A stretch of DNA of 64,000 bases, taken from Hellea sp. (GTDB lineage: Bacteria; Pseudomonadota; Alphaproteobacteria; Caulobacterales; Maricaulaceae). The translations under genes and the position numbers were made by a program. Under the pieces are notes generated by a model. That model searched no databases. It had not been told where the DNA came from and saw nothing but the letters and a program-made list of their open reading frames with translations. Each line of letters opens with the position of its first letter. Position 1 is the stretch's first letter. Positions 30,074-49,955 of this stretch are shown piece by piece. The stretch spans positions 1 through 64,000 of the forward strand of contig JAOIVW010000002.1 in the NCBI GenBank assembly GCA_028224375.1, in the 5' to 3' direction.

Positions 30074-33000
30074 ATGTCAGTTGCTGACACAGCTTTGGAA
30101 GAGAAAAAACCGCGTAAGCGCTGGTCAATCTGGCGTTGGCTTTTCTGGATTGTCTTTGGACTTGTTCTACTTGTCCTGATTGTCGCCGCATATCTATGGG
30201 TCAATCGCTACGATCTTTTAGAGAAAACCGCCAGAGACTTACTCTCAGAGCAAGGCATTCAAGCTGAAATGTCCATTCAGTCTATCAGCAAAACACAAGC
30301 CGTTCTAAAAAACGTCAAGCTGATAGACACAAGTTCAGACGATAAAACCCCTTTTTTCTCGGCCCAAAAAATCACAACAGATTATGCATGGCGTGATGCT
30401 TTAGAAGGGCGGGTGGATAAGATCGTCTTTACCCGGCCTAAGGCGCGCATCACTCTGGATAAAACGGGTAAAATTATTGATGGCTGGCTTCCGCCTCAAG
30501 GTGAAGGTGGTTCCAGCGGCACGACATTGCCGCCGCAAGGCATTATAATTAAAGATGGGAATTTCACTATTACCAGTCCTTTTGGCAAAGCCGAGACGCA
30601 AGTCGACGCGACCTATTTTGCGCCTGACAATTTCAAAGCTTTAATCGACATTGCTCCGACACGCGTCTCTTACGGAGATTGGAACCTCGCGGGCGGCGGG
30701 AAAGCTGATATTCGGCTGCAGGGCGAGAACCAAAAACTGGATGTAGATATAAGCCTCTCATCGCTTGAGCATCCTGCTGTGGACGCAAAGGCGCTTCGTA
30801 TAAAAGGGCAGCTCGTCCCAACCCTTTCGGACACCGCCTTGAAAGTTGAAGGCGATTTGAAGTTTAATTTTGACAGCCTTGTGACGGCTCAGCTTGTGAC
30901 AGGCGCAGGGTCGATGCGCTGGGACGGGCTTATTACCCATAAAAAAGAAGAGCCGCACCCTCTGGGAATGAGCGGGACATGGAGCGCCGACATCACGGAT
31001 GCAACTCTGCCAGACCCTGCAAGGCGGCAAGACTTGGCAAAAACGCTCAGCCTGTCAGAGGCACTTTTAAATGCGCCTGTCGCTCAGAACTTTAGCGCTG
31101 GCTTAACCCGCGAATTAACGGGGCTTTTGACGCGCAGCAATATTGATGCCGAAGGACGTCTTGAGCTTAATCCGACTGGACTGGCTGTTAGCTTGTCTGG
31201 CCCGGCTAATTTGCGCGCGGATAAAACCACTTTGCGATTAGACCCAATAGAGGGGGCGCCTCTCTATAAATTCTCCCGTTCTGATGAGACTTTGAATTTG
31301 GTTTTTCACGCAGGCCTAACAGAGCCTGCTGGACTGACTTTCAGGCAAGCGGACATTCTCGCGCCCAGCACAAATGGCTGGCAACTGGACGGCATTAATC
31401 GCTTTTCAGCTAATATCAGCACGTCCAAAACTTGGCGTTCCAACGGCCTGTTGGGACAAGGGGCGCGGCTCGCCCCTTTCAAAAGTGATGTGGTCTATAA
31501 TGGCGGGGAAGGACCGCGCAATATAGTGTTCTCAGGCGGGGTTAATTATGACGGGACGGTTCCGGGCGGTTATGCCACCGGCTTAGTCACTGCGGGCCGC
31601 ATGAGCATGGACTTGCGCGGAGATAATTTGGATGTGCGCTATGCGCCCAAAGACGCCGCGCCCATTCGCCTCGACAAGCTTGCGACCGATACGGATTGGC
31701 GCGGTGAAAATATTTCGGCCACGCTCTTATCTGACACGCCGATTTTCATGCGCCGCGGTAACAGCTCTGAAATGAGCGCGGCTATGGCGGATGTCAGCCT
31801 ATTGGCTATCGACCGCACAAATACTAAAAATCTCGATATGAGCTTTAAGGGGATGAAGGTTGCTGGTGAATTGTCAGGCGACACACAAAATTGGGATATT
31901 CTGGGGCAAAACGCTAAAATTCTCTCAGAGGACATGCCCGGCCCAGGCACGGTCATCACAACGCCCGAAGCGCGAATTCAAGTGCAGCGAGACGGCGAAA
32001 CGAATCCAATACAGTTTTTCATGGCGGCCCCCAAAGCTGACGTCACAACGCAATTAGTGACGGCAACAGCGATTAGCGTGGAAGCGGCAGGCGCGCCAGA
32101 TGAATATGTTCTGCGCTATAGCCCCGGCGCAGAGGGCAAAGGCCGCGTTAAATTTGCTGGTGATGCACTCCCGCGCTTGCCTATGACGGGGGCGGTTAAT
32201 TTTGCGGATGGGGCCTTTGACGGCACGGCCCGCACGACCTTGCCACTCACGGATGATACGCCGATCGATATTTCTTACCGTTTTAAAGACGGCCAAGGCA
32301 CAGCCGATGTTGATATTCCCGACCTCGTCTTCACACCTAAAGGCTTACAGCCACAATATCTTGTCTCGGCCCTTAAAGGTAAAATCGCCGAAGTGCAGGG
32401 CAGGGTGCAAGCCAATATTAAACTCGCTTTCGCGGCAGGCCAGCCTTTGCAATCCTCAGGTACGGCAAAGATTATTGATATGAACTTTGGTACGCTCCCG
32501 GGGCCTCTGACGGGTATGAGTACGGAAATGCGTTTTTCCAACATGTTCCCCTTGCAAAGCGAAGGGCGCCAAACCTTGACTATGACACGCTTTGACCCCG
32601 GCTTCCCGCTGGAAAATGGCACAATTGAATTTGAAATTATTCCTGATGGCGTAAAAGTATATTCCGCGCGGTGGCCGCTAGGCGATGGTTTCTTTTCGCT
32701 AGACCCCTTTGAATGGCTTTACTCCAATAAGGTCAACCGCGTTGTTATGCGTATTGAAAATGTCTCCATCGGGGAGTTTCTCAAAGATGTTGGCGACGGC
32801 GCTATCAACGCCACGGGCAATCTGGAAGGCACGCTGCCTATCGTGCTCTCTGGCGTGGATGTTAAGGTCGAAAATGGAGAGCTTTTTGTCAAAGATGGCG
32901 GGCGCATCCAATATCAATCCAAGCAGCTCAATTCGATTTCACAGCTGGATGGTACGGATGAGCGCGCCGTGCAAGCCATTCGCAAAGGCAATTATCGCGA

Positions 33001-33268
33001 CGCGGCCTTTGAAGCCTTGAAAGACTTCCAATATGACGAGCTTCGCGTGACCATAGACGGCCCGCTAGACGGCGCGATTGGTGTTAATTTGAAATTTGAC
33101 GGTAAGAATGGAAAAGTTCTGGGCGGACAGCCTTTCCGCTTTGACATTAACTTGCAGGGTGAGCTCTTAAACATATTACGCAGCTTCAATACCAATGCTC
33201 AGATAAAGTCTGAACTCGCAAGGCGGGGCCTCACCAAAGAAGAAGAAATCCCTGATTTAGAGCAATAG
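30074..33268 (+). CDS. YdbH-like AsmA-superfamily envelope protein
   Basis: This very large 1064-residue protein has an N-terminal basic segment and single membrane helix (about 22-45, WLFWIVFGLVLLVLIVAAYL). A long beta-rich periplasmic part follows (ARITLDKTGKIIDGWLPPQG, TQVDATYFAPDNFKALIDIA). The C-terminal DctA-YdbH-type part is near GDGAINATGNLEGTLPIVL, VKVENGELFVKDGGRIQYQ and RSFNTNAQIKSELARRGL. Such proteins form long hydrophobic grooves that carry phospholipids between membranes. It leads towards gyrB, 97 bases later. Confidence 0.82.
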   Translation: MSVADTALEEKKPRKRWSIWRWLFWIVFGLVLLVLIVAAYLWVNRYDLLEKTARDLLSEQGIQAEMSIQSISKTQAVLKNVKLIDTSSDDKTPFFSAQKITTDYAWRDALEGRVDKIVFTRPKARITLDKTGKIIDGWLPPQGEGGSSGTTLPPQGIIIKDGNFTITSPFGKAETQVDATYFAPDNFKALIDIAPTRVSYGDWNLAGGGKADIRLQGENQKLDVDISLSSLEHPAVDAKALRIKGQLVPTLSDTALKVEGDLKFNFDSLVTAQLVTGAGSMRWDGLITHKKEEPHPLGMSGTWSADITDATLPDPARRQDLAKTLSLSEALLNAPVAQNFSAGLTRELTGLLTRSNIDAEGRLELNPTGLAVSLSGPANLRADKTTLRLDPIEGAPLYKFSRSDETLNLVFHAGLTEPAGLTFRQADILAPSTNGWQLDGINRFSANISTSKTWRSNGLLGQGARLAPFKSDVVYNGGEGPRNIVFSGGVNYDGTVPGGYATGLVTAGRMSMDLRGDNLDVRYAPKDAAPIRLDKLATDTDWRGENISATLLSDTPIFMRRGNSSEMSAAMADVSLLAIDRTNTKNLDMSFKGMKVAGELSGDTQNWDILGQNAKILSEDMPGPGTVITTPEARIQVQRDGETNPIQFFMAAPKADVTTQLVTATAISVEAAGAPDEYVLRYSPGAEGKGRVKFAGDALPRLPMTGAVNFADGAFDGTARTTLPLTDDTPIDISYRFKDGQGTADVDIPDLVFTPKGLQPQYLVSALKGKIAEVQGRVQANIKLAFAAGQPLQSSGTAKIIDMNFGTLPGPLTGMSTEMRFSNMFPLQSEGRQTLTMTRFDPGFPLENGTIEFEIIPDGVKVYSARWPLGDGFFSLDPFEWLYSNKVNRVVMRIENVSIGEFLKDVGDGAINATGNLEGTLPIVLSGVDVKVENGELFVKDGGRIQYQSKQLNSISQLDGTDERAVQAIRKGNYRDAAFEALKDFQYDELRVTIDGPLDGAIGVNLKFDGKNGKVLGGQPFRFDINLQGELLNILRSFNTNAQIKSELARRGLTKEEEIPDLEQ

Positions 33269-37878: not shown

Positions 37879-39294
37879 TTAATTAATGGCCGCTTCATTA
37901 AACCCGGACCCGCCCAAAGCTAGATATAAAGCTATCCTCGCTTCGATAATCTGGCGGTCGAGTGTAATCGCTGTTTGGTCGGCTTGGAAGCTGCGCTGGC
38001 GGAATGTGAGCACATCAATTAAATCAATGTCGCCTTCCTTATATTGGATTTCCGCGAGCGCCAGAGTTTCGCGTGCGGAGTCCGCGCTTTGCTGAACAAA
38101 GACCCGGCGTTCCCGCAAAATACTAATTGTATTGAGCGCGCTCTCGACATCAAAATACGCGTCCAGTACCGCTTGACCGTAATCAGCGAGCGCTTGCCGC
38201 TGGGTTGCGCTCGCGGCGTCAATACGGGCCTTTGAGAGGCCGCCATCAAACAAAACATCCGCTAATCGCGCGCCTAGGGATAAGGCGACCGAGACGGGAT
38301 CAAAAATATCGCCAATACTGCCCGAAGCCGTATCAATGCCGCCATTCAGCGTGAGAATTGGCAATGTGTCTGACGTGACGACGCGGGTGGATTGAAAGGC
38401 GCTGAGCACGTCATATTCAGCCGATAAGACATCCGGCCGGCGATTGAGCAGGGCCTCCGGCGTGCCGGCCCCAAGGTTTTCCGTGAATGTTGGAAAATCT
38501 GGCGCGATGGCTAATTCGCCGCTCGGATAGGCGCCAAGCAATATTTGAAGGGCTTGGATAGCGTCTGTCTTCGCGGATCTGGCGACGACCAAATTGTCTT
38601 GCGCTGAGGCAACATCGGATTCGGCTAAAACCACTTCACGCCGAGACGCTGCGCCAAGCTCATAGCGCACATTGACGATACGAAAGGTTTCTTCTTGCGC
38701 GCGCAAAGTTTGCTCTGACAAGTCAATTTGAAGATCCGCTTCTATGGCGAGGCTGTAAGAGCGGGCGACGGCGGCAATTAAAGCCTGGCGAGCGCTTTCA
38801 AAGGCCGCGCGGGTGCTGGCCAGATCAAAGCCTGAGGCGAGTATGCCAGCGCGGATACCGCCCCATAAATCGGCTTCCCAACTGGCGGATAACCCGCCGG
38901 AATAAGTGTCAAAGAAATCACCGCCTTCAAGTACAGTGCCTGCGCTTGGAGAAAAGTCTGCACTCAGGCTCGGGACTAAATTTGAGCGGGACTGCCTGAG
39001 CAGGGCCTCTGAACGGGCTATACTCTCCGCGCTTGACCTGAGTGAGGGGTTATTGACGAGAGCTTGAGTAATCAATTCATCCAAACGCGGGTCAATGAGA
39101 ACGGAGCTCCAATTCTCGGCAATCTGGCCATCCGTTTGCTCGCCGAAAACCCAGCTCGCAGGCGCGTTGATTGCGGCGGCCTCGGTAGAGACTGACTCTT
39201 CGCCAGATGGCCCGATGTCAAAATCAAATGTCGAGCAGGCACTTAAGTTTAGCGCCAGCGCGAGTAGGGCCGTAGAGGCTAAGGGTTTAATCAT
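37879..39294 (-). CDS. Efflux outer-membrane factor (TolC/NodT-like)
   Basis: The start ATG at 39294 overlaps the end of the permease gene by 8 bases; earlier in-frame codons are less likely. The 471-residue product has a lipobox (LALNLSACS, Cys about 20), hence an outer-membrane lipoprotein. It carries the two-fold helical repeat of outer-membrane factors: RSSAESIARSEALLRQSRSN, VARSYSLAIEADLQIDL, NRRPDVLSAEYDVLSA and the C-terminal RQRSFQADQTAITLDRQIIE. It forms the exit duct of the efflux pump whose other genes precede it. Confidence 0.92.
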   Translation of the reverse strand: MIKPLASTALLALALNLSACSTFDFDIGPSGEESVSTEAAAINAPASWVFGEQTDGQIAENWSSVLIDPRLDELITQALVNNPSLRSSAESIARSEALLRQSRSNLVPSLSADFSPSAGTVLEGGDFFDTYSGGLSASWEADLWGGIRAGILASGFDLASTRAAFESARQALIAAVARSYSLAIEADLQIDLSEQTLRAQEETFRIVNVRYELGAASRREVVLAESDVASAQDNLVVARSAKTDAIQALQILLGAYPSGELAIAPDFPTFTENLGAGTPEALLNRRPDVLSAEYDVLSAFQSTRVVTSDTLPILTLNGGIDTASGSIGDIFDPVSVALSLGARLADVLFDGGLSKARIDAASATQRQALADYGQAVLDAYFDVESALNTISILRERRVFVQQSADSARETLALAEIQYKEGDIDLIDVLTFRQRSFQADQTAITLDRQIIEARIALYLALGGSGFNEAAIN

Positions 39295-40516
39295 GGCGAA
39301 GCGCCTCAATCGGGTTAAGCTGCGCGGCGCGGCGGGCGGGGAAGAATCCAAAAAACAGGCCGATCAAAACCGAGGCGCCAATAGAAACAAGGGCAATAGT
39401 CGGCGAAATATTGACAGGAAAGTCTCCAAGCTTTGACGCCAGTTCTGCTGCGCCTACGCCGAGCCCTGATCCAATAATGCCGCCTATCAGGCATAACCCA
39501 AGCGCCTCAAAAAGAAACTGCCCTAAAATATCTTGCTTACGCGCGCCAATCGCCATGCGCAGGCCAATCTCGCGCGTGCGTTCTGTGACAGAAACCAGCA
39601 TAATATTCATCACGCCAACACCGCCCACGATGAGAGACACGGCGGCTGTAAAGGCGAGCAAAATGCCAAAAGTGGCTTGGGTACTGGAGCGCGCGCGAAT
39701 AAAATCAGCGATATTAAAGACGCGAAAATCATCATCTTTACCAGGCCTGATTTTACGGATAACGCGCAAGCGTTCTTCCAGCTCATCTTGCGCGAGTGCC
39801 ATGTCATAACCAGGCGTGACGGAAACTGAAATGTCAGAAACATAATTACGGGTCGTCGCGTTACCGCCGAGAATACGGTTTCGCGCTGTCGTGATGGGAA
39901 CAATAACTACATCGTCGCGGTCACTCCCGAAATTGGATTGGCCTTTCTTGTCGAGCACCCCAATAACTGTCACCGGTACATTATTGACCCGAATTTTTTG
40001 CCCCAATGCGCTGGACCCCTCGAATAAAGTATCCGAAATCGTGACGCCAATAACGGCAACGGCTTGGCCGGAACTAACCTCCCGGTCTTCAAAGAGACGT
40101 CCTTCCTGTGCGTTCCAAGCTTGAGAGATGAAATAGTCCGTGTTCACACCGTAAATACTTGTCGACCAATTTGTCTCCCCGGCAACAACGGTGCCTGAGC
40201 CATTAATGCGGGCTGAGACGGCCAAAGCATAAGGCTCACTGCGAAGGTCTTCCACATCACTATCCGTAAAAGGTGTCCTGCCGCCCGCGCCGCTGGAACG
40301 TCCGCCGCGGCGGTCAGCACCGGGCCGCACGGTTAGATTATTGGCCCCGAGCGAGGAAATTTGCGCGTCGACCTGACGGGCGGCGCCTTCACTAATGGCC
40401 ATCATTGCCATAACGGAGGCAACACCGATCATAATACCGAGCATGGTGAGGAAGCTGCGCATCGGATTTGCGCGCAAAGCTTCGAGAGCAGATTTTAAAG
40501 CGACGCCGAATTTCAT
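39287..40516 (-). CDS. MacB-like ABC transporter permease
   Basis: This 409-residue product has the FtsX/MacB permease form: one N-terminal helix (LTMLGIMIGVASVMAMMAIS, about 22-41), a large periplasmic domain (IYGVNTDYFISQAWNAQEGR, VIGVTISDTLFEGSSALGQK) and three C-terminal helices (about 280-305, 335-360, 375-395). A Gly/Arg-rich stretch (GADRRGGRSSGAGGRT) lies in the periplasmic part. In E. coli MacB the ATPase and permease are fused; here they are separate. It overlaps the ATPase gene by 4 bases (ATGA). Confidence 0.92.
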   Translation of the reverse strand: MKFGVALKSALEALRANPMRSFLTMLGIMIGVASVMAMMAISEGAARQVDAQISSLGANNLTVRPGADRRGGRSSGAGGRTPFTDSDVEDLRSEPYALAVSARINGSGTVVAGETNWSTSIYGVNTDYFISQAWNAQEGRLFEDREVSSGQAVAVIGVTISDTLFEGSSALGQKIRVNNVPVTVIGVLDKKGQSNFGSDRDDVVIVPITTARNRILGGNATTRNYVSDISVSVTPGYDMALAQDELEERLRVIRKIRPGKDDDFRVFNIADFIRARSSTQATFGILLAFTAAVSLIVGGVGVMNIMLVSVTERTREIGLRMAIGARKQDILGQFLFEALGLCLIGGIIGSGLGVGAAELASKLGDFPVNISPTIALVSIGASVLIGLFFGFFPARRAAQLNPIEALRHD

Positions 40517-41220
40517 GTTGTTGCCCTTTCATCCCGCTCTATTTCGCCATCGCGAAAATGGATTCTACGGGTAGCGTATTCTGCGACTTCGTGCTCATGG
40601 GTCACGATAATGACGGTAATGCCTTGGTCGGAAAGGCCGGTGAGCAAGTCCATAATATCTTCAGAGGTTTTGGTATCCAGCGCGCCTGTCGGCTCATCTG
40701 CGAGCAGAATAGAGGGCGAGCCTGCCAAAGCCCGCGCGATAGCGACGCGCTGTTGCTGTCCGCCGGAGAGCTGCATAGGCCGGTGATCCATACGGTCGCC
40801 CAGTCCGACCATTTCAAGGCACTCTGCGGCGCGCGCATCAATGTCTTTCAGCGGATTACGAGAATAGCGCAGCGGCAGCTTTACATTCGTCAAAGCGGAA
40901 GAGCGCCCCAAGAGATTAAATTGCTGGAAAATAAATCCGATGGTCTCATTACGCAAATCCGCCAAGTCATTGGATTTAAGCTTGGCGAGGTTTTTCCCAT
41001 TAATTTCTAAATCACCCGATGTGGGCACATCAAGCGCGCCTATTAAATTCATCAGCGTTGATTTTCCTGACCCTGACGGGCCCATAATCGATGTCATCTC
41101 GCCGCGCTGAAACGTCAAATCCACACCCTTAAGCGCATGTACCTTTTGCGTGCCCATGACATAAGTTTTGGTCACCTTGCGGCAGGATATTAAGGGCGGT
41201 GATGTGGCGGGGCTTTGCAT
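40513..41220 (-). CDS. ABC transporter ATP-binding protein (MacB/LolD-type)
   Basis: The start is taken at ATG 41220 (MQSPATSPPLISCRKVTKTY), 7 bases after the adaptor stop codon; the earlier in-frame start would overlap that gene. The 235 residues show a Walker A (MGPSGSGKSTLMN), the Q-loop FIFQQFNLLG, the ABC signature LSGGQQQRVAIARALAG, Walker B ILLADEPTGALD and the switch His VTHEHEVAEY. It powers the efflux complex encoded around it. Confidence 0.95.
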   Translation of the reverse strand: MQSPATSPPLISCRKVTKTYVMGTQKVHALKGVDLTFQRGEMTSIMGPSGSGKSTLMNLIGALDVPTSGDLEINGKNLAKLKSNDLADLRNETIGFIFQQFNLLGRSSALTNVKLPLRYSRNPLKDIDARAAECLEMVGLGDRMDHRPMQLSGGQQQRVAIARALAGSPSILLADEPTGALDTKTSEDIMDLLTGLSDQGITVIIVTHEHEVAEYATRRIHFRDGEIERDERATT

Positions 41221-41227
41221 GGAATGG

Positions 41228-42709
41228 TTAATTGCCTTGCGCCGATACGCGAATGCGGGTGACAAACTCATCACCTTCCGCCGCGCCGCGCAGGATTTCC
41301 GCATAGGATCCGTCTTGCAGCCCAAGCGTGAGCGTTTGTTTCTTAAGCTTATTCTCCGGGGCCGTCTGATAGGCTTCTACCCGGGTGACAGAAGCCCGCT
41401 CGGAGATGGCCTCTTGATATTGTTTATACTCTTCAGCTGTGAGGTTTCTTTTCAGAACTTTCTCAGAGGCGGCCTGAATGCGTTGACGCAGCGCGTTGCG
41501 GTCAAATTGTGCGCGATCACCTAAGCTTTCACGCGCCGCCTGTATCTCAGCGCGAAGCTCAGTTTGTATCGTGTCTTTTTTGGCCTGATCAATATCGAGC
41601 GCATTTAGGGCTTGAAGTCCGCCGCCTCGGCCACCACGCCCGCCGCCTTGCCCGCGCTGACCGCGTCCTTCGGTCGCCGCGTCTTCTACCAATTCAGGGC
41701 CGTTAGCAGGGGGACGAAAGCGAACGACGGTCTCGGCGACACGCAGCACATTTTCCCGTTTATCGGCTGTGATTTCGACATTTGCTGTCATACCCGGCAA
41801 GAGCTGCCGACGCGGGTTCCGAGCTTCAATGACAACTGTATAAGTCACAACATTTGAAAGTGTTTCAGAAGCAAGCCGTACTTGCTCAACAGTACCGCGG
41901 AATGTTTGATCCGGATAAGCGTCGACATTAAATTCAACAGTATCTCCTGCATCTATGCCGCCAATATCGCCTTCAACAACAGCCGCATCAATCCGAATAT
42001 CTTCAAGGTTCTGAGCGATGGTGAAAAGAATAGGAGCAGAAAAGCTGGCCGCCACCGTTTGTCCGACATCAACGTCCCGCGAAATGACAACGCCGTCAAT
42101 CGGAGAGCGAATGATGGTGCGCTCAAGGTCCACTTGCGCAGACCTTAAGGTCGCATTGCGTTGTGACAGCGTCGCATCAAAGGTGCGAAGCTGTGCCTTA
42201 CTGACGTCCAAATTTGCCGATGCGACGGCGAGGGCGCGTTCGTTATCTTCCAGTGTGGAGCGAGCGACAGCGTCTGCCGCAAATAAAGCCTTTTGCCGGG
42301 CAACGTCCCGTTCTGCCTGCGCAAGTGTTGCCTCTGCGCTCGCAATATTTGCTTTTTGCACCGCAAGGTTCGCCTGCGCGCTCAACACATTAGCTTGCGC
42401 GGATTCGACACTGCTTTCGAAAGTTTGGGGATCAATCCTGGCAATGATGTCGCCGGCTTTAACTTCGGAGTTAAAATCAGCATTCAGCTCAATGATTTGA
42501 CCAGAGACCTGAGACCCGACCTCAACGGTTGTCAAAGCGCGCACGGCACCGGACGCAGAGACAATACGCGCCACATCACCCGTTTCCACCTTTGCGGTTT
42601 CAATCTCAAATGTTCCGACCTCAGCCGAAGAGTCAGGCTTGAGGAAAAAAGCCCATAAGAGCGCCAGCGCGATGAGCACAACAGCTGCGATTAAAATTTT
42701 CTTTAACAT
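41228..42709 (-). CDS. MacA-like periplasmic adaptor with glycine-rich insertion
   Basis: This 493-residue HlyD-family adaptor has an N-terminal membrane helix (about 4-22, ILIAAVVLIALALLWAFFL) and lipoyl halves (VGSQVSGQIIELNADFNSEV, then RTIIRSPIDGVVISRDVDVG). A long helical hairpin runs at about 90-185, and the beta-barrel/MP domains follow. A Gly/Arg-rich insertion lies at about residues 345-365 (GRGQRGQGGGRGGRGGG), followed by a helical segment (AQFDRNALRQRIQAASEKVL) not found in standard MacA. It links the permease to the outer-membrane factor. It is the first gene of the four-gene minus-strand operon. Confidence 0.92.
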   Translation of the reverse strand: MLKKILIAAVVLIALALLWAFFLKPDSSAEVGTFEIETAKVETGDVARIVSASGAVRALTTVEVGSQVSGQIIELNADFNSEVKAGDIIARIDPQTFESSVESAQANVLSAQANLAVQKANIASAEATLAQAERDVARQKALFAADAVARSTLEDNERALAVASANLDVSKAQLRTFDATLSQRNATLRSAQVDLERTIIRSPIDGVVISRDVDVGQTVAASFSAPILFTIAQNLEDIRIDAAVVEGDIGGIDAGDTVEFNVDAYPDQTFRGTVEQVRLASETLSNVVTYTVVIEARNPRRQLLPGMTANVEITADKRENVLRVAETVVRFRPPANGPELVEDAATEGRGQRGQGGGRGGRGGGLQALNALDIDQAKKDTIQTELRAEIQAARESLGDRAQFDRNALRQRIQAASEKVLKRNLTAEEYKQYQEAISERASVTRVEAYQTAPENKLKKQTLTLGLQDGSYAEILRGAAEGDEFVTRIRVSAQGN

Positions 42710-42899: not shown

Positions 42900-44375
42900 A
42901 TGGAACATTACGGCATTCTCTCACTTCTCCCGCCCATTATCGCGATTGGGCTCGCGCTCTGGACACGGCAAGTCTTTCTGGCGTTGCTCATCGGGATCGC
43001 GTCTGGGTTCTTCATTCTGGCGGGCGGAAACCCGCTACAAGGCCTCATCGGCACGATGGCGGGTTTCGTCAGTGTGTTTGAGAGCAATTATAATACTGAA
43101 ATTATTATCTTCACATTACTCATAGGGGCCTTGATTGCCTTGATACAGCGGGCTGGCGGCGTTGAAGGTTTCGTCAATCGCGTCTTGTCATGGCTACAAA
43201 AAAAGGCCTCCAAGGCCGATAGCCGAGGGCAGCGTAGGCGGGTTGAGCTTTTGGCGGTTCTGACGGGGATGCTGATTTTCGTGGAGAGCAACATTTCCAC
43301 TCTTACCGTGGGCACGCTGTATCGCCCCGTGACCGATAAGCTCTCTATTCCGCGTGAAAAACTCGCCTATATCGCAGATAGTACCTGCGCGCCTGCCTGT
43401 ATTCTTATTCCGCTCAATGCTTGGGGGGCTTATATTATGGGCTTGCTGGCGGAGCAAAATGTAGAAGAGCCAGTCTCAATGTTGGTCAGCGCAGTCGCGT
43501 TTAACTTCTATCCCATGCTCGCGATTTTACTACTTGTCATTGTTATCCTGACGGGCCGTGATATTGGCGAAATGAAACGCGCTGAAACCCGTGCCCGCAC
43601 AGAAGGCAAGGTTTTGCGCGACGGGGCGGTGCCTATGATTGCGGGCGAAATTACAATGATGGAAGCGAAAGAGGGGGCCGTTCCGCGGGCTCGAAATATG
43701 CTCATCCCGCTCATCACCCTTGTTGTCCTAATGCCCGTCTTTTTGATTTATACAGGCTGGGACCATGGCGCTGACGTCTCGAATGCCTTCTTTGATATTT
43801 GCAATCGCGCCTCAGGGTCAAAATCTGTCCTTTATTCTGTCTGCGGAGCGATCATGGTCTCTGCTGTCATGAATAAAGCGCAAGGCATTATGGGCGTGCG
43901 CGAAATGGTCGATGTCATTTTAAAGGGCATGTCAGGCATGCTCCCGCTGGCCCTGCTCATGGTATTTGCTTTTGCCTTGGGAGATTTATGCGGGCAGCTT
44001 GGAACAGGCACTTATGTTGCCGAGCAAGCTAAGCCCTTCCTCTCGCCTGCCCTTGTACCAACAGTCATTTTCCTCGTTAGTGCTTTTATCGCTTTTAGCA
44101 CGGGAACAAGTTGGGGAACCTTTGCGATAATGATAGCGATTGCCGTCCCGCTCGCCCAAGGCATGGACACAAATGTCAGTCTCGCCGTAGCGGCAGCGCT
44201 AGGCGGCGGCGTGTTTGGAGACCATTGTAGTCCCACATCTGACACCTCCATCATCACAAGCATGGCCACAGCCAATGACCACATCGACCACGTCAGAACG
44301 CAATTACCTTACGCGTTGATAGGCGGCGGGATTACGACTGTGCTTTATTTGATTTTGGGGGTGATGGGTGTTTAG
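42900..44375 (+). CDS. NhaC-family Na+/H+ antiporter
   Basis: The 491-residue product has about 11-12 membrane helices and family motifs: LTGMLIFVESNISTLTVGTL, ADSTCAPACILIPLNAWGAY, AFALGDLCGQLGTGTYVAEQ, AFSTGTSWGTFAIMIAIAVP and GGGVFGDHCSPTSDTSIITS. The family exchanges Na+ for H+ or moves organic substrates such as malate/lactate; the ion specificity cannot be read. A marine lifestyle fits Na+ export. AAGG is seen before the start. It overlaps the next gene by 8 bases. Confidence 0.92.
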   Translation: MEHYGILSLLPPIIAIGLALWTRQVFLALLIGIASGFFILAGGNPLQGLIGTMAGFVSVFESNYNTEIIIFTLLIGALIALIQRAGGVEGFVNRVLSWLQKKASKADSRGQRRRVELLAVLTGMLIFVESNISTLTVGTLYRPVTDKLSIPREKLAYIADSTCAPACILIPLNAWGAYIMGLLAEQNVEEPVSMLVSAVAFNFYPMLAILLLVIVILTGRDIGEMKRAETRARTEGKVLRDGAVPMIAGEITMMEAKEGAVPRARNMLIPLITLVVLMPVFLIYTGWDHGADVSNAFFDICNRASGSKSVLYSVCGAIMVSAVMNKAQGIMGVREMVDVILKGMSGMLPLALLMVFAFALGDLCGQLGTGTYVAEQAKPFLSPALVPTVIFLVSAFIAFSTGTSWGTFAIMIAIAVPLAQGMDTNVSLAVAAALGGGVFGDHCSPTSDTSIITSMATANDHIDHVRTQLPYALIGGGITTVLYLILGVMGV

Positions 44376-45006
44376 GGCGTTAGTTTTGTCGGGGGCTTTA
44401 CTAGCGGGTTGTCAGAGTAATACGAAGAGTGAAACTCGTAGTGTCATAGTTTTTGAGAATATACCCTCCATAAAAACAAAAACCATAAGTAGGAGTGATT
44501 GCGTTTGGGAAAAGGTAGAACTTTCAATTTTCAATCAAACGACAGAGTTTATTCAATTTGAGTATCATAAATGCCTTCATGAGGGCTCAACGAAATTCGA
44601 AGTTAAGAACGGAAATGAGGTTTTTGGCATTGCCGAAGAAGCAGAGCTTCATATTCTTACCGTTTGGAATACCTCTCCTTATGGGGACGAGGAATTTGTG
44701 AAATCTCTTATACCCGAGGATGCTCGAGATAAATGCATTCTGGTTCAAGACGAGAATAGTAATTGGAAAATTGGATTAAATGAATTGGATACATCGTTTC
44801 AAAATGGTTGGGTTATGTATCCTCCGCTGAATGATAGTATTCCAAAATACTCGGATATAAATGAACTATGCGGTCCTTACGGTTACAACCCCGGCAATGA
44901 TTGGGTTGTTGGGGTTCAAGATGGAATAGGAGTAGCGTATTCAGAAATGATGGAGCTTATGAGCTTCTATGACCTAAATTCTATTACCTATGAAAGTAGA
45001 CATTAA
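44368..45006 (+). CDS. Unrecognised lipoprotein
   Basis: The GTG at 44368 overlaps the end of the antiporter gene by 8 bases, suggesting coupled translation. The 212-residue product has a lipobox (LSGALLAGCQ, Cys 15). It is followed by an acidic domain without recognisable homology (contains FIQFEYHKCLHEGSTKFEVK and LCGPYGYNPGNDWVVGVQDG). It has four or more cysteines that could pair. The DNA is AT-rich relative to the antiporter gene. Function unknown. Confidence 0.7.
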   Translation: MFRALVLSGALLAGCQSNTKSETRSVIVFENIPSIKTKTISRSDCVWEKVELSIFNQTTEFIQFEYHKCLHEGSTKFEVKNGNEVFGIAEEAELHILTVWNTSPYGDEEFVKSLIPEDARDKCILVQDENSNWKIGLNELDTSFQNGWVMYPPLNDSIPKYSDINELCGPYGYNPGNDWVVGVQDGIGVAYSEMMELMSFYDLNSITYESRH

Positions 45007-45009
45007 CCC

Positions 45010-45426
45010 ATGCGCCTATTTATCATTATTTTTGGCTTTCTAGTCTCATCCTGCGCGCAAGCTCAAGACACACAGGATAGCCTTTTTGAAGGTCAATGGG
45101 TGAATGACCGCGATTCTGCAGTGATGTTTGAGGTGAATGATGGCTTGCTCTCCGGTCATTATCAAACCGCTTTGGGCCAACCTGATAAGTCAAAGAAGTT
45201 TCCGCTCACAGGATTTGTCGAAGGCGATCAAATCACCTTCACCGTAAATTTCAAAGGTTATGGCTCGTTGACCAGTTGGACAGGGCAACTCACGAGGGAT
45301 GAAAAAGGCGCGTATATTAGGACACTCTGGAACCTGACCCGCGATGTTGAAGATGAACAGGAGGATGATGACCTCTGGCAATCTATTACATCGGGCGCGA
45401 GTGATTTTCGGCCTTTGAAGAACTAG
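45010..45426 (+). CDS. Avidin-family biotin-binding protein homologue (secreted)
   Basis: The 138-residue product has a signal peptide or lipobox (FGFLVSSCAQAQ) and an eight-strand avidin-like barrel. Comparison with streptavidin (from memory): N23 is N32, S27 is S36, Y43 is Y51, S45 is T53, S88 is S86, T90 is T88, W92 is W90, W108 is W107 and W120 is W123; W79 is replaced by F81. D128, which hydrogen-bonds the ureido ring, aligns with S131, one residue before D132. The pattern GQWVND, GHYQTALG, SWTGQL and LWNLT is characteristic. Biotin binding is likely but affinity may be reduced. It follows the lipoprotein gene by 3 bases. Confidence 0.82.
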   Translation: MRLFIIIFGFLVSSCAQAQDTQDSLFEGQWVNDRDSAVMFEVNDGLLSGHYQTALGQPDKSKKFPLTGFVEGDQITFTVNFKGYGSLTSWTGQLTRDEKGAYIRTLWNLTRDVEDEQEDDDLWQSITSGASDFRPLKN

Positions 45427-45839
45427 TATTTTACGAGAACATAACCTGCTGCCGCGCAGAGTGGCAGGGCGATAAATTCAGCTAAGGACAATGTTGAAAG
45501 TGAATATTTAAGGGCTTCAATACTGGCCGTAAAGAAGGCGTGATGCTCAACGTAATGACTTTTAAATCCGCCTATAAATGTCGGTACAGGAATGATGCAG
45601 ATGCCCGTCAAAAGAGCGGCAATCATTCCGCCCTCAGGCCCTTTTATTTTTGCGGTTATGACGCTCCACCAAAAGGCAGACATAGGGATTAAAGTGAGGA
45701 AAATGATGGCGCTTAATTTTATTACGTCTGAGAGCGCATCAGCTTGGTGACCTAAAAGGCGAAAGGCTAAAATGCCGCCATAGAGTGTGCCGAGCCCCGT
45801 TAAAGCCGCGACAAACCTAAAGCGTTTAGACATAGTCAT
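45423..45839 (-). CDS. Unrecognised membrane protein
   Basis: This 138-residue protein has four hydrophobic helices (about residues 9-27, 40-62, 70-92 and 115-136). Two small histidine-containing segments (FKSHYVEHHAFFT) lie between helices 3 and 4. The start could be the third codon (ATG 45833). I do not recognise the family. It overlaps the convergent avidin-like gene by 4 bases and lies 11 bases beyond the dnaJ stop on the same strand, so may be the last gene of that transcript. Confidence 0.6.
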   Translation of the reverse strand: MTMSKRFRFVAALTGLGTLYGGILAFRLLGHQADALSDVIKLSAIIFLTLIPMSAFWWSVITAKIKGPEGGMIAALLTGICIIPVPTFIGGFKSHYVEHHAFFTASIEALKYSLSTLSLAEFIALPLCAAAGYVLVKY

Positions 45840-45850
45840 GAGCTTAAGTC

Positions 45851-47005
45851 TTAATCAACCAAGTCATCCCAGAACCGGCGGGCTTTGCTAAAGAAGTTTG
45901 CGCTCTCGGGGCTAATCTCATCGCCCGAGACTTCGGCGAGTTCTTCCAACAGCTCACGTTGACGCTTATTCAGCTTTGAGGGTGTTTCCACAGACAGTTC
46001 GACATACATATCGCCGCGCTGATTATTGCGCAGCACGCTCATGCCTTTACCGCGAAGGCGCATACGCTTTCCGCTTTGACTGCCTTCGGGTATCTTAATC
46101 TTAGACCGCCCGCCATCAATGGTTGGGATTTCAATATCTCCGCCTAAGGCAGCCGTCGTCATAGGGACTGATGCACGGCAGAAGAGGTTCGGGCCTTCGC
46201 GCTCAAATAATTCATGAGGTTTGGTTGAGACAAAAATATAGAGATCACCCGCTTGTCCGCGTCCGCGCGGGGCGGCATCGCCTTGGCCTGAAAGACGGAT
46301 GCGCGTGCCGTCCTCGACGCCTGCAGGGATGGTGACATCCAGCTCTGTCTGCTGGCGTGTCTGGCCTTGGCCGTCACATTGCTTGCACGGGTTGGAAACA
46401 TATTCACCTTGCCCGCCGCAGGTTGAGCAGGCGCGTTCCATCGTAAAGAAGCCTTGCTGTGTGCGTACGCGTCCTGCGCCGCCGCAAGTGCTGCAGGTTT
46501 CAACCGAAGCCCCAGGTTCAGCGCCTAAGCCATCGCAACGATCACAATCGCCTGCAATCGGAACGGTGATGTCAATTTCTTTGCCCTTAAAAGCTTCTTC
46601 GAGCGTAATTTCCATTTCATAGCGAAGGTCAGAGCCGCGCTGGGCTTGCTGACGTCGTCCGCCGCCGCCTCCGCCGCCAAACATATCAGCAAAACCGCCG
46701 CCCGCTGCGCCGCCGCCGAAAATTTGAGAGAAGATATCGCCAAAGTCTTGGAAGCCTGCGCCGCCGCCGGCTCCGCCTTGTTCAAAGGCGCGGTGTCCCA
46801 TCCGGTCATAGGCGGCGCGTTTTTGCGCGTCTGATAAAATGCCGTAAGCTTCGTTAAGTTCTTTGAAGCGAGCTTCGGCTTCGGGATCATCAGGATGACG
46901 GTCAGGATGGCACTCCATCGCCTTTTTGCGGAAAGCAGATTTCATTGTCTTCTCATCAGCGTTTTTAACGACGCCAAGAATTTCATAATAATCGCGTTTA
47001 GACAT
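45851..47005 (-). CDS. dnaJ: Chaperone protein DnaJ
   Basis: The 384-residue product has the J domain (DYYEILGVVKNADEKTMKSA and HPDRHPDD with the DnaK-activating HPD), a Gly/Phe-rich linker (GGAGGGAGFQDFGDIF) and four CxxCxGxG zinc repeats (CDRCDGLG, CSTCGGAG, CSTCGGQG, CKQCDGQG). The substrate-binding C-terminal domains follow (VTIPAGVEDGTRIRLSGQGD). It is the co-chaperone of DnaK. Its ATG overlaps the end of the FkbM gene by 8 bases (ATGTCTAA), so translation is probably coupled to that gene. Confidence 0.98.
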   Translation of the reverse strand: MSKRDYYEILGVVKNADEKTMKSAFRKKAMECHPDRHPDDPEAEARFKELNEAYGILSDAQKRAAYDRMGHRAFEQGGAGGGAGFQDFGDIFSQIFGGGAAGGGFADMFGGGGGGGRRQQAQRGSDLRYEMEITLEEAFKGKEIDITVPIAGDCDRCDGLGAEPGASVETCSTCGGAGRVRTQQGFFTMERACSTCGGQGEYVSNPCKQCDGQGQTRQQTELDVTIPAGVEDGTRIRLSGQGDAAPRGRGQAGDLYIFVSTKPHELFEREGPNLFCRASVPMTTAALGGDIEIPTIDGGRSKIKIPEGSQSGKRMRLRGKGMSVLRNNQRGDMYVELSVETPSKLNKRQRELLEELAEVSGDEISPESANFFSKARRFWDDLVD

Positions 47006-47959: not shown

Positions 47960-49867
47960 TTAAGCCTTGTCGTCTTCATCGACGTCTTCAAACTCAGCAT
48001 CGACGACATCTTCGTCTTCTGCATCAGCCGCTTGAGACGCTGGGCCCGTATCTTCTTCCGCTGCAGCATTTTCATACATCGCTGCGCCCATTTTCATGAG
48101 GGCGGCTGAGAGGACTTCGGTTTTATCCGTGATGTCGGCTGTATCGTCAGAGTCTTTAAGCTCTTGAAGCTCTTTCATGGCCGCTTCGATATCGGCTTTC
48201 AGCTCTTCTTCGGCTTGGTCGCCATGATCTTTAAGCGATGTTTCAGCTTGGTGAATGGCTGCTTCAGCTTTGTTACGGGCTTCGGCGAGTTCACGGCGAG
48301 CTTTATCTTCATCCGCGTTCATTTCCGCGTCTTTGACCATAGCCTCGATATCAGCATCTGACAGACCGCCAGAGGCTTGGATACGAATTTGCTGTTCTTT
48401 GCCAGTCGCATTGTCTTTGGCAGACACATTCACGATACCGTTGGCGTCGATGTCAAATGTGACTTCGATTTGCGGCATGCCGCGCGGTGCAGGAGGAATG
48501 CCGACCAGATCAAATTGACCGAGCAATTTGTTATCCGCCGCCATTTCGCGCTCACCTTGCGAGACGCGGATGGTCACAGCAGATTGGTTATCTGCCGCCG
48601 TTGAATAGACTTGGCTCTTCTTGGTCGGGATTGTTGTGTTTCGATCAATCATGCGCGTGAACACACCGCCTTCAGTTTCGATACCGAGGGAGAGAGGCGT
48701 CACGTCAAGCAAGAGAACGTCTTTAACATCACCTTGAAGAACACCGGCTTGAATGGCCGCGCCCATGGCGACAACTTCGTCTGGGTTCACGCCTTTATGA
48801 GGCTCTTTACCGAAGAACTTTGTGACAGCTTCTTGGACAGCCGGCATGCGTGTCATACCGCCAACAAGAACAACTTCGTCAATATCGCCAGCTTTCAGGC
48901 CTGCATCAGCAAGGGCTTTCTTACAGGGCGCAATAGTGCGTTTGATAAGATCAGCGACAAGTGTTTCGAGCTTGGCGCGAGTGAGCTTCATATTGAAATG
49001 CTTAGGGCCTGACGCATCTGCCGTAATAAAGGGCAGATTGACTTCATAAGATGAAGCTGTTGAGAGCTCTTTTTTAGCTTTCTCAGCTTCTTCGCGAAGA
49101 CGTTGCAGCGCAAGCTTGTCAGATTTCAAATCGATGCCGTTCTCTTTTTTGAACTCAGAATTAAAGTATTCAACAATGTGCATGTCAAAATCTTCACCGC
49201 CGAGAAAGGTATCACCGTTCGTGGCTTTAACTTCAAAAACGCCGTCGCCGATTTCAAGGATGGACACGTCAAAGGTACCGCCGCCAAGGTCATAAACAGC
49301 AATTGTTTTGCCGTCTTCCTTGTTCATACCATAGGCAAGGGCCGCAGCGGTTGGCTCGTTGATGATGCGCAAGACTTCGAGGCCTGCAATTTTACCCGCG
49401 TCTTTTGTGGCTTGGCGCTGGGCATCGTTAAAGTAAGCTGGAACCGTGACAACGGCTTGGGTGACTTCAGACCCGAGGAAGTCTTCGGCTGTTTCTTTCA
49501 TCTTTGTCAAAATCATCGCAGAAATTTCAGATGGGCTTAGAACCTTGTCGCGGCCCTGAATATAGGCGTCGCCGCCTTTGCCTTTGACAATCTTGTAAGG
49601 CACCATTTTAGCGTCTTTTTTGACGGCCGGGTCTGTCATGGCGCGTCCGATGAGGCGCTTGACGGCAAAATATGTATGGTCAGGGTTTGTCACCGCTTGG
49701 CGGCGGGCCGTCTGGCCGATGAGCCGTTCGCCGTCATCTGTAAAAGCGACAACTGATGGGGTAGTGCGAACACCTTCTGAATTTTCAATGACCCGAGCCT
49801 TATCACCGTCCATAACTGCGACGCATGAGTTTGTGGTTCCGAGGTCAATACCGATTACTTTCGACAT
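47960..49867 (-). CDS. dnaK: Chaperone protein DnaK
   Basis: The start is taken at ATG 49867 ([20 protein letters not shown]), behind GGAG; an in-frame ATG 12 bases earlier lacks this. The 635-residue product has the Hsp70 ATPase domain (phosphate loops IDLGTTNS and [28 protein letters not shown]), substrate domain ([19 protein letters not shown]) and the acidic C-terminal tail. It folds proteins with DnaJ and GrpE. An RpoH-type promoter (49956-49986) lies about 90 bases upstream. Confidence 0.99.
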
Positions 49868-49955
49868 TGGTTTCTCCATTTTTGGGCCTTCAAAAAGCGC
49901 CCTTAAGGTTTATAAATGCATAGAACAGCCTGATGAAAGACCGTCCGTTGGCTGA

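Follow-up and report, generated by a model that had tools for sequence, protein, structure and literature searches.

An avidin-family protein with a probable lipid anchor and an altered biotin pocket, encoded downstream of an NhaC-family transporter gene in Hellea sp.

The avidin gene and its neighbours

The window, by which is meant the whole stretch of 64,000 nucleotides of Hellea sp. DNA that was analysed, carries on its plus strand an ATG-initiated gene (45010..45426) for a protein of 138 residues that matches the Avidin family of Pfam (PF01382) over residues 26-133 (E = 3.3e-19; 69.8 bits against a cut-off of 24). The barrel domain comprises residues 26-134 (45085..45411, plus strand), with the pocket residues N32, S36, Y51, T53, F81, S86, T88, W90, W107, W123 and S131, and it is preceded by a signal peptide with a lipobox, V12-S13-S14-C15 (45010..45054, plus strand), which predicts a lipoprotein and behind which AQA-Q provides an alternative signal peptidase I site. 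No second PF01382 match was found in the source genome, an assembly of 3.03 Mb in 69 contigs that is 89% complete.

Upstream on the same strand lie the gene of an NhaC-family transporter (42900..44375; PF03553 by Pfam), the usual upstream neighbour of the avidin, and a small lipoprotein-like gene (44368..45006; GTG start, motif LLAGC) that overlaps the nhaC stop codon by 8 bases and ends 3 bases before the avidin start. The NhaC-family protein matches the Tet(35), NhaC and ArcD models of NCBIfam, all far below their cut-offs, and we know of no biotin-carrying NhaC-family protein. The small gene, for which neither Pfam nor NCBIfam gave a match, occupies the position with the 8-base overlap behind nhaC, which in many relatives belongs to the avidin, and a homologue (29% identity) is found in that position at two loci (L005 and L034) that carry the same avidin. 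Downstream and on the minus strand are a small convergent protein without a Pfam match (45423..45839), which stands between avidin and dnaJ in many relatives, and two genes that we take from their sequences to be dnaJ (45851..47005) and dnaK (47960..49879); these flank the usual avidin location, and the dnaK-like gene served as the marker for a genome tree. Genes resembling a MacA-like adaptor, an ABC ATPase and a permease adjoin nhaC on the opposite strand (39287-42709), and a frame of 1064 residues without an NCBIfam match lies upstream of gyrB (30074-33268, plus strand).

By the testable features of its sequence and modelled fold, the product of 45010-45426 is a genuine member of the avidin family in which one pocket residue is replaced. 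The initial annotation, made from the letters alone, had proposed an avidin with a kept pocket and suggested a PF01382 profile search and a structure prediction; the significant Pfam match, the pocket alignment and the model all bear it out. An AlphaFold2 model, the input of which included 20 relatives, has a mean pLDDT of 86, and its eight strands, from residues 28-31 to 126-135, form the avidin beta barrel. Foldseek with this model returned xenavidin first (E = 1.5e-8) and then chicken avidin (PDB 1avd; E = 3.2e-8), while VIA-align counted shwanavidin, rhizavidin, streptavidin and wilavidin among the best superpositions (Z 16.4-17.0 over 104-109 residues). When the PDB was searched with the single sequence, xenavidin (2uyw) was the best match, accompanied by avidin, bradavidin and rhizavidin, with streptavidin weaker, and a 21-row profile gave stronger matches than the single sequence. 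The Streptavidin equivalog model of NCBIfam (NF047623) was not reached (24.5 bits against a cut-off of 300).

The biotin pocket and the export signal

In alignments with chicken avidin, window residues N32, S36, Y51, T53, S86, T88, W90, W107 and W123 correspond to N12, S16, Y33, T35, S75, T77, F79, W97 and W110, while F81 corresponds to W70 and S131 to N118. The alignments used are those with chicken avidin, and the streptavidin numbers attached to the same positions are our presumed equivalents. Streptavidin itself has Asp128 and Trp79. A published residue list confirms most of the avidin position numbers (PMC3344845). Nine of the eleven pocket positions are kept or conservatively changed, F81 is as in bradavidin, and S131 takes the Asn118/Asp128 position, in agreement with the first reading of the eleven positions. 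Ten of the eleven are invariant in the 21 aligned members of the group (the window protein and relatives from 20 of 23 scanned loci, leaving out L018, which is masked, and L024 and L037, which are cut off), compared with 31 invariant positions among the 113 of the mature protein (hypergeometric P = 6e-6).

The two departures from the classical pocket fared differently. The initial annotation had pointed to an altered Trp79 contact; Phe81 is indeed present, but Phe occupies the Trp70/Trp79 position in all 21 aligned members and Phe66 of bradavidin superposes on avidin Trp70 (PMC3344845), so that F81 represents known variation. The reported loss of the Asp128/Asn118 side chain, on the other hand, holds beyond the window protein: 13 of the 21 aligned members have Ser and 8 have Ala at this position, and judged from this alignment the side-chain contact is lost across the whole avidin group. 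In streptavidin, a calorimetric measurement cited in PMC4888747 puts the cost of the D128A replacement at 4.4 kcal/mol, and if that value is transferable, weaker binding and faster release would be plausible in the Ser/Ala group. A further proposal, that Asp132, shifted by one, makes binding switchable, is rejected, since the column is poorly conserved (D in 7, N in 6, E in 3, V in 2, T in 2 and K in 1 of 21), which argues against a kept role. Ratios of dN to dS were not used because two of four pairs gave no dS and the other two gave dS above 2.

Bradavidin (blr5658 of Bradyrhizobium; PDB 4bbo and 2y32, E = 5e-6 and 8e-6) is likewise alphaproteobacterial and shares the Phe at the Trp70 position, but it has Asp107 at the Asn118 position according to PMC3344845, where the window group has Ser or Ala. 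Xenavidin and chicken avidin have the same barrel, but both are vertebrate proteins, and avidin has Trp70 and Asn118. The closest plasmid match, an avidin of Rhizobium gallicum (NZ_CP092345.1; 35.5% identity over 99% of the protein), differs in keeping Asp at Asn118/Asp128 (GADNF, by eye), and no nhaC is listed within 4 kb of it in a plasmid gene table that is incomplete; the avidin frame itself (L039:4001-4411) has no gene listed in that table. As far as the available descriptions go, none of streptavidin, shwanavidin, rhizavidin and wilavidin is called a lipoprotein. From these comparisons, Ser or Ala at Asn118/Asp128 and the usual transporter neighbour distinguish the window group from the compared avidins, and the lipobox, as far as is known from their descriptions, also sets it apart. 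Blc and YxeF belong to other families of the calycin superfamily and have no biotin pocket. These bacterial lipocalin-like lipoproteins are, like the predicted product here, small calycin barrels on a lipid anchor (PMC3367933).

The N-terminus of the window avidin reads MRLFIIIFGFLVSSC followed by AQAQ, with the lipobox (VSSC, residues 12-15) at the end of the first segment, and the protein is probably a lipoprotein. Among 35 distinct group members with a complete N-terminus (from 80 loci searched, 79 had an avidin, 49 of them distinct, from which 3 with a missing N-terminus and 11 divergent ones were removed), a Cys stands at the lipobox place in 26 and a strict lipobox in 16. In the other nine the Cys is absent, with Tyr instead in three (L033, L041 and L042) and a clear AxA site, by eye, in six. 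Most avidins of the group thus look like lipoproteins and some seem to have switched to soluble export, a possibility that extends to the window protein, in which, as in many group members, an AxA site lies behind the Cys (by eye). Residue +2 after the lipobox Cys of the window avidin is Ala, which under the sorting rule of E. coli points to the outer membrane, so that a lipid-anchored avidin would probably reside there.

Among titles and the beginnings of abstracts, in a literature search that lay outside most subscription journals, no natural avidin-family lipoprotein was found. The main text of a 2021 survey of the family (PMC8033661) does not contain "lipoprotein", "Hellea" or "Robiginitomaculum", and the group may be listed in its supplements; as far as its text goes, no bacterial avidin that it covers, streptavidin and two close relatives apart, has been confirmed to be expressed in nature.

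Gene order and biotin genes in the family

A pattern scan of genome contigs gave 23 avidin loci (assigned to Hellea, Robiginitomaculum, Litorimonas, Hyphomonadaceae, Caulobacterales and Alphaproteobacteria). Avidin is present in 51 of the 137 genomes of the family to which the window belongs and in 6 of 385 genomes drawn evenly from the class, the window's own genome included. Of the 51, 41 are referred to as group-type and the other ten are treated as divergent. Two divergent avidin-like matches in related genera (L191 and L192) lie in longer frames of 220 and 267 residues and perhaps represent an extended type like the Maricaulis one named in PMC8033661. A mobile or plasmid origin of the gene is unsupported, because avidin identity tracks dnaK identity (Spearman 0.47 over 26 genomes and 325 non-independent pairs) and the gene is mostly found beside dnaJ-dnaK.

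The usual order is nhaC, avidin and then dnaJ-dnaK on the opposite strand. Of the 41 group-type genomes, 33 have a co-oriented nhaC gene less than 2 kb upstream of the avidin, counting nhaC matches of at least 50% identity and excluding the ten divergent avidins and the partial matches in G075 and G131; three of the eight genomes without an adjacent nhaC (G008, G028 and G073) have the avidin near a contig end. Among the 33, eight have their dnaK match on a different contig and one (G134) has no match above the threshold. The approximately 8 kb on the dnaJ side of dnaK hold no avidin in G020, G027, G135, G140 and G141, and with dnaK elsewhere and its dnaJ side free of avidin in these five, the nhaC-avidin pair persists where the link to dnaJ is broken. 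The two genes are, moreover, closely spaced: at 10 of 13 loci with nhaC next or nearly next to avidin, the avidin start, chosen by hand from the candidate start codons, falls exactly 8 bases short of where the nhaC stop codon ends (GTGTTTAG and variants of it), and the GTG start of L032, if accepted, raises this to 11 of 13. The two genes probably form one operon, and the overlap suggests translational coupling in many relatives. The transporter also occurs alone, since at least nine genomes have an nhaC match without avidin (11 if G075 and G131, where the match is partial, are added), and several of them also lack bioB, so that the avidin is not required for such a life. Control of the nhaC-avidin operon by biotin was considered and set aside: the sequence TTATMKATAA, which we take to be a BioR-like box, does not occur before nhaC in the window or in 18 relatives, and no 8-mer is shared by more than four of these 19 upstream regions, the start position being approximate for L020, L030, L033, L034 and L036.

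Biotin synthesis appears to be scarce among the carriers of the avidin. The bioB gene exceeds the cut-off in 64 of the 137 family genomes. These comprise 53 of the 86 genomes without avidin and 11 of the 51 avidin carriers (raw Fisher p = 7e-6; 5 of the 41 carriers of group type), which leaves 40 carriers without bioB at this level. One avidin carrier has two short adjoining bioB-like pieces (L188; G033:C3:348782-349181) that perhaps represent a decaying bioB. The bioA gene exceeds the cut-off in 22 of 137 genomes, none of the 51 with avidin versus 22 of the 86 others (raw p = 1.5e-5), although a single genus accounts for 18 of these 22. Many genomes that do have bioB likewise show no bioA above the threshold, so a missing match may reflect a different enzyme or a stringent limit. 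A search for bioD in 14 genomes found the gene in both genomes that lack avidin and, of the 12 avidin carriers, in G073 alone, which has bioB as well, together with a bioA fragment just under the cut-off. As for uptake, BioY was found in two of the 137 family genomes, one of them with avidin (G012). With E. coli BioP (YigM) as the query, no match was obtained in 14 genomes, and no positive control responded.

The raw association of avidin with a lack of bioB is strong, but it is not significant after correction on the dnaK tree and is suggestive only, because both traits follow the deepest split of the family. A search of 137 genomes gave 123 with a dnaK match, of which 120 entered the tree; three partial matches were excluded, and four of the 51 avidin genomes were unmatched. 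The rows of the tree comprise 37 genomes with avidin and no bioB, 10 with both, 23 with neither and 50 with bioB only. Independent pairs on this tree supported the expected direction 4.4 times and the opposite one 0.7 times on average (median p = 0.22, range 0.22-0.38 in four versions), and in the clade of 57 rows to which every group-type avidin of the tree belongs, 5 of 40 genomes with avidin and 6 of 17 without have bioB (p = 0.07).

The window's own genome contains bioB, with no match to bioA (at an E limit of 1e-60), bioD or BioY, and as the genome is 89% complete, the missing genes may be missing data. The bioB gene (410 bits; G000:C67:77107-78021) lies beside a gene resembling CTP synthase, and no other bio genes were recognised next to it in the list of open reading frames. 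In PMC9561691, genomes that have bioB while lacking other pathway genes are classed as desthiobiotin auxotrophs, and growth tests described there show that such bacteria can use desthiobiotin. From its gene content, the window genome would fit this class.

A possible role in vitamin capture

The reading that we favour, with a probability of about 0.4, is that a cell-attached avidin with loosened binding captures biotin or desthiobiotin for its own cell, and that the NhaC-type protein is a candidate importer. The precursor would be processed to a lipoprotein held on the cell, probably at the outer membrane, where its predicted ligand is biotin, desthiobiotin or a molecule carrying biotin, held with lower affinity than by streptavidin; weaker, reversible binding could concentrate the vitamin at cells that are unable to make biotin from scratch. 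The upstream NhaC-family transporter may be the route into the cell, which is the least certain step. Several observations speak against this reading: the upstream regions show no biotin control box, a biotin-carrying member of the NhaC family is not known to us, some relatives have nhaC with neither avidin nor bioB, and the tree-corrected association is weak. No paper linking the avidin family to biotin uptake was found in the literature search, again with most subscription journals outside it, nor one that combines three or more of the themes biotin auxotroph, avidin, biotin scavenging and outer membrane lipoprotein; for Hellea balneolensis and biotin, the same search gave a single paper, on sponge microbiomes.

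The initial annotation had instead proposed a secreted protein that starves competitors, and sequestration of this kind, with an avidin released or displayed so that rivals or grazers run short of biotin, has been suggested for streptavidin and other bacterial avidins and is one of the common ideas about their function (PMC8033661). Export as such is supported, and the nine of 35 members without the lipobox Cys would be freely exported, but free secretion of the window protein is doubtful because its signal ends in a lipobox, and the Cys in the other 26 would keep the protein on the cell. The loss of the Asn118/Asp128 side chain should, in addition, weaken the binding on which starvation of others depends, and with 40 of 51 carriers having no bioB over the cut-off, starving the neighbours would be self-harming unless the bound biotin can be taken up. 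Given the NhaC-type neighbour and the little biotin synthesis, capture for own use fits at least as well, and sequestration appears unlikely.

The protein might also remain in the periplasm, where, cut by signal peptidase I after AQA and before Q, a free avidin would buffer biotin or rescue leaked or biotinylated material. The AxA site behind the Cys in the window protein and in many members, and the clear AxA that six of the nine Cys-less members keep (by eye), speak for such a store, yet without lipidation there would be little reason for 26 of 35 members to have a Cys where the hydrophobic stretch ends, and we consider a soluble store distinctly unlikely. That the pocket has been re-tuned to another ligand, such as a biotin-like vitamer, a biotinylated peptide or an unrelated small molecule, so that biotin is no longer served, is improbable: Ser or Ala at Asn118/Asp128 and Phe at Trp70/Trp79 in all 21 aligned members would suit such a change, but the remaining nine tested pocket positions are invariant, and bradavidin with its Phe66 (PMC3344845) is called biotin-binding and was solved with biotin, as described in PMC5398887.

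Capture of the vitamin by an anchored avidin can be confronted with these alternatives directly, since the combination of a lipobox in most members, the lost Asn118/Asp128 side chain, a transporter neighbour in most genomes and few bioB genes makes the choice between starving others and feeding oneself testable, and named strains with a group avidin are available (Hellea balneolensis DSM 19091 and Litorimonas cladophorae KCTC 23968). If the capture reading holds, the group would offer a natural, reversible and membrane-anchored avidin of possible use as a tool. A stronger form of it, which we think unlikely as a whole, is that the nhaC-avidin pair constitutes an unrecognised vitamin-scavenging module of biotin-needing marine Caulobacterales, in which the anchored avidin would be the surface receptor and the coupled NhaC-type protein the importer of biotin or desthiobiotin. 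Were this true, the nhaC-avidin module would represent a nutritional rather than an antibiotic function for a native bacterial avidin.
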